Below are positions 44,276-49,470 of a stretch of 52,863 bases of DNA, in pieces. The DNA comes from Klebsiella pneumoniae (lineage in GTDB: Bacteria; Pseudomonadota; Gammaproteobacteria; Ga0077536): NCBI GenBank assembly GCA_945876945.1, contig CAMCQE010000012.1, forward strand, positions 1-52,863, written 5' to 3'. The position numbers and the translations under genes were made by a program. The notes under the pieces are model-generated. The model saw nothing but the letters and a program-made list of their open reading frames with translations, was not told where the DNA came from and did no database searches. The stretch's first letter is position 1. The number at the start of each line of letters is the position of its first letter.

Positions 44276-45010
44276 CTAGCGGGCGGCGGTTTTCTCGCGT
44301 GGCGTGACCACCGCTGATTTCAGCTGCAAGACTTCGTGAACCAAGGGCGGCTCGCCTCTCGCCCCCGGCACTACGGTTTCCACGCGGTACACATAGCCCG
44401 GCAAACGCTCCGCCACAATCACGCTGTAGGCCTTGTCCGCGAACTGCTCAAACTCGTGGCGCTTGGGATCTTTGGCGTAGGGCTGAAACGTAATCTGCTG
44501 GCCGTCATAGCGCTGGCCCGCAAAATCAAAACTGACCGGCTTGACGCTGGCCGCTTCCGCGAGCGCCAATTTGATTCGACGCTGGAAGTAGCGCCAGCGC
44601 TCGCGGGATTTTCCGTCCGGATCGGTCAGGCGGTTCATCTCGTACACATCGCCCTGAAAGTAGACCTTCAGCACCGGATTCGCATCGGTATTTTCCGCCG
44701 GCGGCACGGGGAAATGTCGCTCGCCGGTAAAAAAGCGGATGGCGCCGTCTTTCAAGCCGTTCGGCTTGATCCTCGTAATGGTGAGCTCGACCGTGTCGGT
44801 AAACCCATGCTCATAGGTACCGGTGCGCTCAAAGTCGTAGTTGAGCACCATGGGCTGCTTGATGGCTTGCAGCTGGTTGCCCAGCCACAGCATTTTTTCG
44901 GCGGTGGAAAACGGCGTTTCGGTAGCATCCGGCGCCGCGGGTTCTGCCGCGCTGCTCAGCGCACCCAAGGCCAGCACCAGCAGCGCGAACAGGCGCGGCT
45001 TAATCATCAT
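44276..45010 (-). CDS. Exported protein of unknown function, last gene of the xoxF cluster
   Basis: A 244-residue protein with a signal peptide (about 1-22, MMIKPRLFALLVLALGALSS followed by A-A-E) and a mature part rich in alternating hydrophobic residues, probably beta-stranded: MVLNYDFERTGTYEHGF, VYFQGDVYEMNR, VSFDFAGQRYDGQQITFQPY and RLPGYVYRVETVV. I do not recognise the family. It overlaps the xoxJ end by 11 bases, so it should be co-translated with XoxJ and act in the periplasm or outer envelope beside the methanol dehydrogenase. The overall look recalls LolA-like or DUF3108-like beta folds, but only loosely. Confidence 0.8.
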   Translation of the reverse strand: MMIKPRLFALLVLALGALSSAAEPAAPDATETPFSTAEKMLWLGNQLQAIKQPMVLNYDFERTGTYEHGFTDTVELTITRIKPNGLKDGAIRFFTGERHFPVPPAENTDANPVLKVYFQGDVYEMNRLTDPDGKSRERWRYFQRRIKLALAEAASVKPVSFDFAGQRYDGQQITFQPYAKDPKRHEFEQFADKAYSVIVAERLPGYVYRVETVVPGARGEPPLVHEVLQLKSAVVTPREKTAAR

Positions 45011-45878
45011 CGCCCCCGCGCTTCTTCTCCAAGGGCAGCATCGGCACGCCGTACTCGGCCAGAATCTGGTCGATCTTCGGCTGGTTTTTCTTGATCAGCT
45101 GATCGATCTGCTGGCGCCGCGCCTCGTCTCCGTGGCGCACCGCCATCGCGATCTGGTAGTCAAACTTGAGCCCCGGTTCGTTATTCAGCGGGATGACCAC
45201 CAGCCCGGCGTTTTTCAATTTCTGCTGGACATAGCCGGCCATCGGGCCCCACAGGAAAGTGAGGTTGATGTTGCCCTTCATGAGTTCGGTCTCGACGATG
45301 TGCGCCGGGTTTTGTTTGGGGTCGCCGGACATCATCGGATAGGCCTCGGCCTGTTCGATGAGGCCTAATCTGGACACCCACTCGGTCGTCGGGCCCTGGT
45401 CCCAGATTCCGATTTTGAGCACGGCCTTGTGCGCATCGGAGAGGTTCTTGAGGTCGTCCTGGGTTTTGATCCAGTCGAGGCCTTGCCCTTTGGCAAACAC
45501 CATCGCCCAGGTGGAATGCAGATAAGGCCGGGTCGTTGCCGCGAGTTCGAAGTTCTCGACAACCCCCATCACCACGTCGCATTTGTATTCGCCGTCTTCG
45601 GTCTCGTTGTTCTTGAGCGTGGCGCGCACAAAGCCCAGACGCTGCGGAAACCAGGTGTAGGCCGCCTTTTGGCCCAACTGGCCGGCAAAGAGTTCGGCGA
45701 TTCGGTTCTCGTAGCCGGAACCGTCTTTCTCGGACATCGGTAAGTTGTAGGGGGGCGCACAAACCTTGAACGGGGCCGGCGCCTCGGCTTCCGGGGCGGC
45801 GACCGCCGTTCCCGCAAGCATCAAGAGCGCCAGCGCGATCAGGGTGCGCGCAGGAGTTTGAACAGGGGCAACAGTCAT
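45000..45878 (-). CDS. xoxJ: Periplasmic substrate-binding-like protein XoxJ
   Basis: A 292-residue exported protein of the family 3 solute-binding fold. A signal peptide ends near T-A-V-A-A-P (about residue 28); the mature protein starts with FKVCAPPYNLPMSEKDGSGYE, followed by AYTWFPQRLGFVRATL and CDVVMGVVENFELAATTRPY. This is the quinoprotein dehydrogenase-associated family to which XoxJ and MxaJ belong; XoxJ is proposed to help load PQQ or lanthanide or activate XoxF. The ATG at 45878 has GAGG 8 bases upstream; an in-frame GTG at 45890 is less likely. Confidence 0.93.
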   Translation of the reverse strand: MTVAPVQTPARTLIALALLMLAGTAVAAPEAEAPAPFKVCAPPYNLPMSEKDGSGYENRIAELFAGQLGQKAAYTWFPQRLGFVRATLKNNETEDGEYKCDVVMGVVENFELAATTRPYLHSTWAMVFAKGQGLDWIKTQDDLKNLSDAHKAVLKIGIWDQGPTTEWVSRLGLIEQAEAYPMMSGDPKQNPAHIVETELMKGNINLTFLWGPMAGYVQQKLKNAGLVVIPLNNEPGLKFDYQIAMAVRHGDEARRQQIDQLIKKNQPKIDQILAEYGVPMLPLEKKRGGDDD

Positions 45879-45948
45879 GGCGATCCTCACCTCATTAACC
45901 CCGGCTGCGCGGGACGCTGGTCACAGCATCCCGTACAGCCATGGTGAC

Positions 45949-46404
45949 TTACTGGATGCGGCCCTTGGCCTTCAGATCGGCTTTCATTTTCTTGATGACG
46001 CGCGCGACCATATTCTTGCCTAGCGGCACATCGTTCAGCGCGGTATCGAGCGCCGCCAGATTGGACGGCGCGCCGTCGCCCACCACGATCGCGGCGACCA
46101 TGCCGGTCGTCATGTGGGGGGTGCATTTGTAGATGTAGGCGCCTTCCTTTTCGACTTTCAGGGTGTAGCCCTCATCACCCATTTTTGATTCCCACTTGGC
46201 AGCACCAGCCGGTAGCATGCCGTCGATGGAAACCGTGTTATGCCCGGCCATCTGGACGAAGCGAATGGTGTCGCCCGGCTTGGCATAAAGCACCATGGGT
46301 TCCCAGTTGGTGATCACGGCTTTCACCACATGTTCGTCAGCCATGACATTCGCGCTGCCGACCACGCCAAACAACACCGCAGACCACAAAAGCTTTGACC
46401 TCAT
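45949..46404 (-). CDS. Pseudoazurin-like blue copper protein in the xoxG position
   Basis: A 151-residue periplasmic cupredoxin. A signal peptide ends at N-V-M-A (residue 22). Type 1 copper ligands are H55 (A-G-H-N-T), C94, H97 and M102 (C-T-P-H-M-T-T-G-M), the same C-x2-H-x4-M spacing as pseudoazurin; the early NWEPMVLYAKPGDTIRF fits as well. The C-terminal helical tail (about 115-151) is basic and lysine-rich. GGAGAG lies upstream of the ATG. It stands between xoxF and xoxJ where methylotrophs usually carry cytochrome c xoxG, so an electron-acceptor role for XoxF is inferred. Confidence 0.9.
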   Translation of the reverse strand: MRSKLLWSAVLFGVVGSANVMADEHVVKAVITNWEPMVLYAKPGDTIRFVQMAGHNTVSIDGMLPAGAAKWESKMGDEGYTLKVEKEGAYIYKCTPHMTTGMVAAIVVGDGAPSNLAALDTALNDVPLGKNMVARVIKKMKADLKAKGRIQ

Positions 46405-46560
46405 ACCTGCACTCTCCAAAGAAAATTAACAACAACTGATAGATCCAGCGCGTGCGCGGCGCCGCCGGCCTTGGCCGTGCGAACGCGGGTCAATGCCAAC
46501 GCACGGGCTGTTCGGCAGGGCACCGGAGTAAAGGTTCCCCCACCTCGGCCTGAGTCCCGA

Positions 46561-46638: not shown

Positions 46639-48498
46639 TTACGGCAGGCTGAACACGCTCAGCACGCCGCCCAAGCGGGTAAAGCTGCCGAGACCTTTGT
46701 AGGCGCCAACGGCGCCGAGGCCGTCAGAATCCTGCATCAGGCCGGCCGCCATGCCGATCCCGGCCCAGCCACCCACACCGGACAAAACGCCCACGTACTG
46801 TTTGCCGTTGTGGCCCCAGGTGTTGACGTTGCCGATGATGCCCGAGGGGGTCTTGAACTGCCACAGCAGTTTCCCGCTCTTGGCATCCACGGCCTTCAGG
46901 TAGCCTTCGAGGGTGCCGTAGAACACCACGTCGCCCGCCGTTGCCAGTGCGCCGCTCCAAACGGAGAAGCGTTCCGGGATGGACCATTTGATTTTGCCTT
47001 CACTCGCATCCCAGGCGATGAAGTTGCCCAGATTGTTGTTGTCGGCGTTGTTGCCAAACTCGGGGCCCGGCGACACCTTGCCGGCGGGGAACATGCCCAG
47101 CACCGCATTCACATACGGCTGACCGGCCACGTATTCGCCACCGCTCACCGGCTCGTAGTTCATGCAGACATGGTTAGTCGGCACATAGAACAGGCCAGTC
47201 TTCGGGCTGTAGGCCGCAGGCTGCTGGTCTTTGGTCCCGAGCGCGGCCGGGCAGATGTTGGTGGTCTGGACGTCTTCGCCGTTGCCATGCGGGCTGTACT
47301 TCGCCACCACTTGCGGACGGCCCGTCTTCATATCGACGTGCGTGGCCCAGTTGACCGCCGGGTCAAACTTCTCGGCGACCAGCAGTTCGCCGGTCACGCG
47401 GTCCATCGTGTAGCCAAACCCGTTGCGGTCGAAATGCACCAGCGCCTTGCGATCCTTACCTTTCACTTTCATGTCGGCGAGGATCATTTCGTTGATGCCG
47501 TCGTAGTCCCATTCATCATGCGGGGTCATCTGATAGACCCACTTGGCCATGCCGGTATCGACATCGCGGGCGAAGATCGACATCGACCACTTGTTGTCGC
47601 CCGGACGCACCACCGGGTTCCAGGTGGACGGATTGCCGGTGCCGTAGAACATCAGGTTTTGTTCTTTGTCGTATGGCCACCAGCCCCAGGTTGAGCCGCC
47701 GCCGATCTTCCACTGGTCGCCTTTCCAGGATTTCAGCGAAGAATCCTTGCCGATCGGCTGACCGAGCGAGGTGGTCTTTTCCGGATCGACGAGCATGTCG
47801 GCGTCCGGGCCCATGGAGTAGGCGCGCCACACGCGTTTGCCGGTCTTCAGGTCGTAGGCATTCATCCAGCAGCGCACGCCGAACTCGGCGCCCGAAACAC
47901 CGGTGAACACTTTGTCCTTGATGACGTGCGGCGCGTTGGTGTTGGTCTGGCCCAGTTTGGGGTCGCCGTTCTTCACCGACCACACCACTTTGCCGTCCTT
48001 CGCGTTCAGCGCCACCAGCGTGGTGTCCGCCTGTTGCAGCAGAATCTTGCCGTCGCCGTAGCCGAGACCACGGTTCACGGTGTCGCAGCACATCACGGGC
48101 ACGGTTTCGTCGTAGTCCTGTACCGGCACGTATTCCCACATGACTTCCAGCGTATCCAGATTGATCGCGAAGACGTTGTTCGGGAATGCGGCGTGAATGA
48201 ACAGGGTGTCACCCTTCAGACCGGTCGCCGAGGCCGGCAACACAAGCGGGCCGCCTTCGTGTCCACGCAGCACACCCGTAGAGAAGGTCCAGGCCGCCTG
48301 CATTTTGCCGGCGTTGGTGGCGTTGATTTGTTTCAACTCGGAATAGCGCCAGTTCCAGTAGTTGCCGCCTGGGTAAGCCCAGTAGTTGGCATCCTTGATG
48401 AGCTTCTCTACCTCAGCATTGGCTGTGGCCGCCCCGGAGGCGAACACTGCTGCAAGAGAGGCTAATGCGATGAGCCATCGCTTGAACGATGAGTTCAT
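46639..48498 (-). CDS. xoxF: Lanthanide-dependent PQQ methanol dehydrogenase XoxF
   Basis: A 619-residue eight-bladed quinoprotein. A signal peptide ends near T-A-N-A (residue 28). The PQQ-stacking vicinal disulfide is C137-C138 ([12 protein letters not shown]). Metal ligands by family alignment are E205 (VSGAEFGVR) and N289 ([10 protein letters not shown]); the catalytic aspartate is D312 and the extra lanthanide-coordinating aspartate is D314 in F-A-R-D-V-D-T-G. The second aspartate of this DxD distinguishes XoxF from calcium MxaF. AGGAG at 48505-48509 gives a good ribosome-binding site. It leads the group pseudoazurin-xoxJ-unknown exported protein. Confidence 0.97.
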
Positions 48499-48821
48499 GA
48501 CCTACTCCTTCTTCTCGTTTTCTGTTGACGCTTGGTGATCTCTAAGGCTTTAGACTCCCCCCAACGCCGAGATCGGCAACGTCGGGCGGAGCATTCAAAT
48601 CTTCGGCAGCCGGAGTGGAGTCCCACAGGTTCCCCATCGGCCATCGTCAGGACTCGGACTCGACATCGGCACGGGGTAAGCTGCCGCCTGCCTCCACCCC
48701 CGGTGGGCGGCAAGTCATCGGGTCGCGCCCCGCGCTTTATCGCGCATCGTCGGGGCCTTGCGCGCGGCTGGGGACCGACGTTTCGAACCCGCGCCGCGCG
48801 GTAAGAGGCGCCCGCAGCGCG
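48499..48821 (-). promoter_or_regulatory. Long structured 5' leader of xoxF
   Basis: If transcription begins about 7 bases after the -10, the xoxF mRNA has a ~323-nt leader. It contains several GC hairpins: a stem 48727-48732/48751-48756 (gccccg with cggggc) enclosing a smaller gcgc stem, a nested stem 48683-48711 (ccacc/ggtgg inside gccgcc/gcggc), and GTGG-AGTC-CCAC at 48615-48626. Close to the gene are the inverted repeat GATCTC/GAGATC and CTAAAGCCTTAG. It matches no riboswitch class I recognise, cobalamin included. No good reading frame is visible. Confidence 0.5.
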
Positions 48822-48827
48822 TGCCTG

Positions 48828-48855
48828 ATTATAGTTAAAAACCCTGCCCCGACAA
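48828..48855 (-). promoter_or_regulatory. Consensus-like sigma70 promoter of xoxF
   Basis: On the minus strand, TTGTCG (-35, 48850-48855) and a perfect TATAAT (-10, 48828-48833) are separated by 16 bases. This is the best promoter match I found in the window. A run of five T follows the -35 inside the spacer. The predicted start is near 48821. It lies 65-90 bases after the stop of the four-cysteine exported gene, so xoxF can be expressed independently of it. Confidence 0.7.
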
Positions 48856-48920: not shown

Positions 48921-49331
48921 TTATTGGGGTGCGACAATTTTTTTACCCGGAATTTTGGCTGGCAACTCCAGCTGGCGCACCGCGCCCACGAAGCAGCGCT
49001 TGCGGGCATCGGCCCGGGCATCGGTGATGCGTTTGGTGAGTTCCTTCGCGCGATCCGTTTCCCGGAACAGGCTGCCCTTTTCGCCGGGCATCTGCTTGTA
49101 CACCTCGTAGGTGCGGGCTTCGGTGTATTCGTCGAAATTAACGGTCTGGGCAATGATGTCGATCTGGCAGCTGCAGCGCTGCAGGTTGTCGATCGTCTGG
49201 CCGCCGTTTTCTTTCATGCAGGTCAAAACGCTGTCCACCCGGTCAAGGGTGGGATAGTCGTTGGCCTGCGCGCCCGGGGTCACCGCGAGAATCCCCACCA
49301 GACTGGCTACCATCAGAATCTGTCGCCGCAT
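48921..49331 (-). CDS. Small exported protein with four cysteines upstream of xoxF
   Basis: A 136-residue protein with a signal peptide (about 1-23, MRRQILMVASLVGILAVTPG then A-Q-A). The mature part is helical and charged and holds four cysteines: C38 (VLTCMKENGG), C53 and C55 (QRCSCQIDII) and C113 (RKRCFVGA). The pattern suggests disulfides or metal binding rather than heme, since no CxxCH is present. AGGA stands 5 bases before the ATG at 49331. I have the impression of similar proteins next to PQQ-dehydrogenase genes in methylotrophs but cannot name a family. It is on the same strand as xoxF. Confidence 0.78.
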   Translation of the reverse strand: MRRQILMVASLVGILAVTPGAQANDYPTLDRVDSVLTCMKENGGQTIDNLQRCSCQIDIIAQTVNFDEYTEARTYEVYKQMPGEKGSLFRETDRAKELTKRITDARADARKRCFVGAVRQLELPAKIPGKKIVAPQ

Positions 49332-49470
49332 TGCTGTCCTCCATTGCTGTGTGTCCGGGACCCCGGCCACCATACGCGGAAATCCGGCATCGATCATTTC
49401 TATGGCACAGTTCCGTGCAATCATCCGCCGCGACCTTGATTGCCTTCCACCAATGCGGATTTCTACGCCC

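Follow-up and report, generated by a model that had tools for sequence, protein, structure and literature searches.

A conserved pseudoknot-type RNA element in the xoxF leader and its possible role in translation initiation

The xoxF locus, its promoter and its leader

XoxF is a widespread lanthanide enzyme. The window (the whole stretch of 52,863 nucleotides that was analyzed) encodes on its reverse strand a PQQ methanol dehydrogenase of this lanthanide type (xoxF, 46639..48498), assigned on the basis of its reading frame, the NCBIfam model TIGR03075 and its solved relatives, the closest of which are the XoxF entries 6dam and 6oc5. Its translation contains the stretch DEWDYDG, with the extra aspartate characteristic of lanthanide-type enzymes. 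The gene is followed on the same strand by those of a pseudoazurin-like cupredoxin (45949..46419; PF00127, with TIGR02375 under its cut-off) and of a XoxJ-type periplasmic binding protein (45000..45890; TIGR03871). Besides xoxF, five other relatives of this gene occur in the window genome among the matches listed; as these reach at most 40% identity, the genome may be devoid of the calcium-type MxaF, and xoxF may be its sole methanol dehydrogenase.

The gene upstream of xoxF (48921-49400, reverse strand) encodes a small, probably exported protein that starts NDYPTLDRVDSVLTCMKENGGQ and has no match in Pfam or NCBIfam. Similar reading frames were noticed by eye upstream of xoxF in L002-L004, L008, L028, L185, and L186, and the product may be an uncharacterized partner of XoxF.

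A promoter of the form TTGTCG-16-TATAAT was located by motif scan at 48828..48855 (reverse strand), in agreement with the sequence-only reading, which had described it as a consensus promoter. It carries 10 of the 12 consensus bases, and promoter-like sites in the 1.3-kb stretch number 2 vs. 0.3 in shuffles. The same kind of boxes separated by a 16-nt spacer recurs in all ten leaders of the same family (window, L002-L008, L028, and L091), at distances of 268–481 nt between the end of the -10 box and the ATG. A further nine of 33 leaders show TTGATG or TTGATA-16-TATAAT, as close as 159 nt to the ATG, and the remaining 14 show weaker promoter matches or none. In the window 329 nt separate the end of the -10 box from the start codon of xoxF, which would place the transcript start near 48821 and give a leader of about 320 nt, the length claimed earlier; the conservation of a promoter this far upstream speaks against a transcription start near the ATG.

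The leader had also been described as hairpin-rich as a whole, a claim that did not hold. The whole-leader fold (-142.2 kcal/mol vs. a mean of -137.7 in shuffles; z -0.83) is equaled or bettered by 21 of 100 shuffles, and whole-leader folding was therefore rejected as evidence of structure. The proposal of a structured leader survives for the last 107 nt (hairpin z -4.18) and finds no support in the upstream part (48603..48821, reverse strand, if transcription starts near 48821), which is unconserved among relatives: the first ~220 nt of ten family members do not align and contain no invariant column. A GTGGTCA/TGACCAC pair, noticed by eye in several family leaders, could not be made out in the same way in the window.

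Architecture and conservation of the leader element

The conserved element as modeled occupies 48496..48602 (reverse strand), with the start codon included at its 3' end, and scores 76.5 and 74.5 bits with the covariance models R1 and R2, respectively, the window copy being one of the sequences used to build both. Its outline became apparent when the window and 19 relatives were aligned over the ~110 nt preceding the ATG, with a GRTCTC motif, a GAGRYC motif and a AGGAGGAGGTC-ATG block standing out; when each sequence was folded with the hexamer held open, a hairpin surrounded the loop hexamer in 20 of 20. The layout comprises a hairpin of about 14 pairs, a predicted H-type pseudoknot formed by its loop and, finally, the strongly conserved AGGAGGAGGTC-ATG start region.

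On the reverse strand of the window, the 5' arm of the hairpin (GCTCCGCCCGACG, 48580..48592) and its 3' arm (CGTTGGGGGGAGT, 48554..48566), both delimited by folding and covariation, enclose the loop hexamer GATCTC (segment A, 48569..48574), recognized by conservation and covariation. This hexamer is complementary to GAGATC (segment B, 48537..48542), located 26 nt downstream and acting as the putative pseudoknot partner; across members, a GRTCTC loop faces a complementary GAGRYC 24–33 nt downstream. The two hexamers account for the inverted repeats that the sequence-only reading had reported near the start codon. The ribosome-binding region (AAGGAGTAGG, 48501..48510) reads TAGGTC in the window. 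Apart from the paired hexamers and the start region, few unpaired bases are conserved; T occupies loop position -4 in 49 of 58 members, and position -1 is a pyrimidine in 57. When the window hairpin is folded freely, a G and a C of the loop pair with each other.

Two additional features were considered and rejected as core parts of the element, since both are absent from the window: a small hairpin with a UUAA loop between GAGATC and the ribosome-binding site (15/58) and a GATC..GATC pair (23/58). The GATC of the CATGATC region is also complementary to the GATC of the pseudoknot strand in 23 of 58 members. Inside the coding sequence, the first codons of xoxF often read CATCG-N6-CGATG, a short hairpin that includes the codons TCG and CGA (window 48495-48472, reverse strand; also L003, L004, L006-L008, L010, L011, L017, L127, and L129), which could be part of the regulatory element or a reflection of the conserved protein start.

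Several comparisons among members support the fold. Fitting to the covariance models biases the alignments A2 and A3 toward the structure; the alignment-free arm-swap test largely escapes this bias. In this test, applied to 33 members, the hairpin formed by a sequence's own arms has a mean energy of -18.8 kcal/mol vs. -12.1 with swapped arms, and none of 10,000 permutations was as good as the own arms (in several members, such as L028 and L138, the own arm is no better than many swapped ones). Double changes were counted in 119 cells vs. 47.0 in shuffles for the 33 members, and in 271 vs. 83.3 for the 58 members, a value reached by none of 500 shuffles and by none of the slid controls (at most 93); in the larger set 91.7% of cells are paired vs. 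70.4% in shuffles, and two-sided changes are found at all 14 stem pairs. The number of pairs that show any two-sided change lies near that of shuffles: 15 vs. 13.0 in the 58 members, reached by 20 of 500, and in the 33 members 93 of 500 shuffles reach the observed count. Hairpin z-scores are below -1 in 55 of 58 members.

All 58 members retain the complementarity between the loop and its downstream partner. Within this pseudoknot helix a two-sided change was observed at one of six pairs, in four members, from A-U to G-C. Conserved pairing among relatives, which had been proposed as a test of the leader's structure, was thus found in both parts, as compensatory change in the hairpin and as universal loop pairing. 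The combination of compensatory change in the stem with pairing of the loop to a 3' single strand corresponds, at the level of sequence comparison, to an H-type pseudoknot, and the existence of a conserved structured RNA with a ~14-pair hairpin and a loop-pairing pseudoknot can be regarded as well-supported. The sequence of the pseudoknot helix is nearly invariant, while the stem turns over.

Distribution and association with xoxF

Within the order to which the window belongs, R1 detected the element in 10 of 36 genomes; L095 was set aside from this count (22.5 bits, E 0.0086, no adjoining xoxF). In a sample of the class, 17 of 369 genomes matched, among them that of the window and two others from its family, and in a sample of the phylum 3 of 398, which correspond to the window copy and two false matches. 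R2 matched 36 of 53 genomes in the order around G153, 3 of 3 around G101 and 2 of 2 around G063. A named relative bearing the element is Methylohalomonas lacus (L018). In the window genome the sole strong match is the one at xoxF, the three others having E > 1.

Successive R1 and R2 searches yielded 70 distinct genome matches: 11 in the window's order, 18 further ones in the class sample, 39 around G153 and 2 in the phylum sample, with none added by the searches around G101 and G063. Of these, 64 lie directly before xoxF, as judged by coordinates or by tblastn, three at contig edges and three are false or doubtful (L095, L144, and L145). The same layout thus precedes xoxF immediately in many gammaproteobacteria. 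L144 and L145 were dropped since their matches lie inside other genes.

In a tree built from 116 XoxF rows, which include duplicates, the bearers fall into one set of 61 rows with a support of 100, made up of 55 bearers and six others. R2 gave no match in five of the latter (L009, L012, L013, L014, and L019), and the sixth, L030, is truncated ahead of its start. Two Rhizobiaceae, L068 and L081, which appeared as bearers by text pattern, were rejected as pattern errors, with no match to R2; no pseudoknot pattern was seen on reading L185 and L187, xoxF relatives without a model match. Inheritance of the element with one XoxF clade, with few losses, would be the simplest reading of this distribution. 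The structure of the element and its association with xoxF can be taken as solid within the sequences compared.

Nine genomes (G153, G232, G268, G374, G800, G810, G815, G823, and G824) have two matches each, and every copy with available downstream sequence precedes a xoxF; some of the second copies score low (34.7–46.5 bits) and may be drifting. Two records deserve mention with respect to their labels. L004 (CAMATU010000020.1) is a metagenome bin whose title names Klebsiella pneumoniae; its XoxF is 89% identical to that of the window and groups with this gammaproteobacterial clade, and the label looks wrong. The XoxF of L077 (NZ_VCCH02000096.1, "Mycobacterium sp. KBS0706") groups tightly with that of Inquilinus limosus, which suggests a mislabeled or contaminated record.

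Possible modes of action and relation to known systems

The start region is itself a feature of the element: of the 58 members, 53 have GAGGTC adjacent to the ATG, vs. 0 of 61 xoxF leaders scored as element-free (a set that includes L068, L081, and the cut-off L030 and leaves out L185). L185, in which the pseudoknot is lost, still has the GAGGTCATG start region. The sequences around the start codon could engage in overlapping and mutually exclusive pairings, and for this reason translational control is favored. GAGATC (B) and the start region GAGGTCATG (D) would be alternative partners of the loop (A) and, where present, of CATGATC (segment C). The mean duplex energy is -11.2 kcal/mol for loop:B and -9.3 kcal/mol for loop:D; in the window, with its TAGGTC, the loop:start-region pairing is weak (-6.2 kcal/mol). 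CATGATC can form 7 bp with GGTCATG, start codon included, in 23 of 58 members, and is missing from the window. Compensatory change in the start-region pairing was not found among members: those with a GGTCTC loop mostly keep GAGGTC, which weakens this pairing. Three of the GGTCTC-loop members changed B to GAGACC. Depending on which of these exclusive pairings prevails, the ribosome-binding site would be accessible or blocked, and the element would in this way set the rate at which xoxF translation is initiated; the balance could be tipped by a ligand, a protein that binds the RNA, temperature or cotranscriptional folding. Control of xoxF translation by the element is considered likely, and the fuller proposal, namely that the last 107 nt constitute a cis-acting RNA of an undescribed family that controls initiation by means of exclusive pairings, is advanced with moderate confidence.

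Other explanations account for parts of these data. The element may be the target of an RNA-binding protein that recognizes the invariant GATCTC/GAGATC helix and acts as a repressor or an activator of translation. A helix that stays nearly constant beside a stem that turns over is what would be expected if its letters were read, and this explanation is seen as a tentative one, somewhat on the unlikely side.

A riboswitch proper, in which the pseudoknot serves as an aptamer and xoxF translation is switched by direct binding of a lanthanide ion, PQQ or a C1 compound, appears rather unlikely. Small pseudoknots adjacent to ribosome-binding sites are a known riboswitch design, and the element was found before xoxF only, where checked. 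Lanthanides up-regulate xoxF in other methylotrophs, according to the portions available of two studies (PMC5018670, PMC10728633), however, the lanthanide responses described in such portions use proteins, e.g., MxaY and PedS2/PedR2. Moreover, almost no base is conserved beyond the paired hexamers and the start region, and the scarcity of conserved unpaired bases disfavors a large ligand pocket and lowers both the riboswitch hypothesis and that of a lanthanide ligand. The specific version in which a cytoplasmic trivalent lanthanide ion stabilizes the pseudoknot and switches XoxF translation is accordingly given a slim chance.

It is likewise doubtful that the element is a constitutive stabilizer of the mRNA or a standby structure, providing a long-lived or well-initiated xoxF transcript independently of any signal. 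Such a function would be consistent with the strong hairpin present in every aligned member and with the fact that pairing of the loop to GAGATC does not by itself occupy the start region, but the element is located at the 3' end of the leader, joined to the conserved start region, and complementarity to this region would be superfluous for stabilization. A DNA-level operator with GATCTC and GAGATC as protein half-sites, suggested by two strongly conserved and complementary hexamers, is scarcely credible given that their spacing varies (24–33 nt), that the promoter, in the leaders where it was identified, is located a long way upstream of both and that the individual pairs of the stem enclosing the loop covary.

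Concerning the proposed translational element, known RNA families offered no counterpart. The Rfam 15 covariance models gave no match at the gathering score in the window and in 18 member-holding loci, and a search of the leader at E up to 10 returned one chance-level match only. In the available parts of the open-access literature on xoxF with riboswitch or lanthanide, no RNA element is placed before xoxF; broader searches contained no report of such an RNA among the matches listed, and names such as "lanthanide riboswitch" or "xoxF motif" had no verbatim occurrence in the open-access literature searched. The xoxF-leader RNA family is apparently undescribed. The association of a conserved RNA with a single XoxF clade suggests an additional, mRNA-level control of this enzyme in these bacteria, and the element represents a defined 107-nt target with testable pairings, so that direct sensing of lanthanides by RNA becomes testable; a lanthanide-stabilized pseudoknot, if true, would be the first RNA sensor for rare-earth metals.

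The preQ1 classes and SAM-II are H-type pseudoknot riboswitches acting on translation. The xoxF element resembles them in being a short leader element whose loop pairs with a downstream strand and which adjoins the ribosome-binding site; it differs in having no Rfam match, in occurring before xoxF only, where checked, and in its few conserved unpaired bases. Protein-binding mRNA pseudoknots are represented by the leaders of ribosomal-protein genes and of T4 gene 32. With these it shares the position of a pseudoknot just 5' of the start codon under regulation, whereas XoxF is an exported enzyme and self-regulation is for this reason unlikely.

Leader RNAs also occur in methylotroph genomes that carry xoxF, in the form of c-di-GMP, cobalamin, TPP, SAM, and glycine riboswitches (PMC12530212, PMC12403871, PMC3621897); unlike the element described here, none of them is placed before xoxF in the available parts of these sources. 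As to lanthanide-dependent control of methanol and alcohol dehydrogenases, the regulators found among the literature matches listed are, in the text available, proteins, including MxaY (PMC5018670) and PedS2/PedR2 (PMC6115532). The xoxF element has in common with them a lanthanide-dependent dehydrogenase gene as its target, but while these proteins, as presented in the accessible portions of both reports, act on transcription, the xoxF element is a conserved RNA of the leader.
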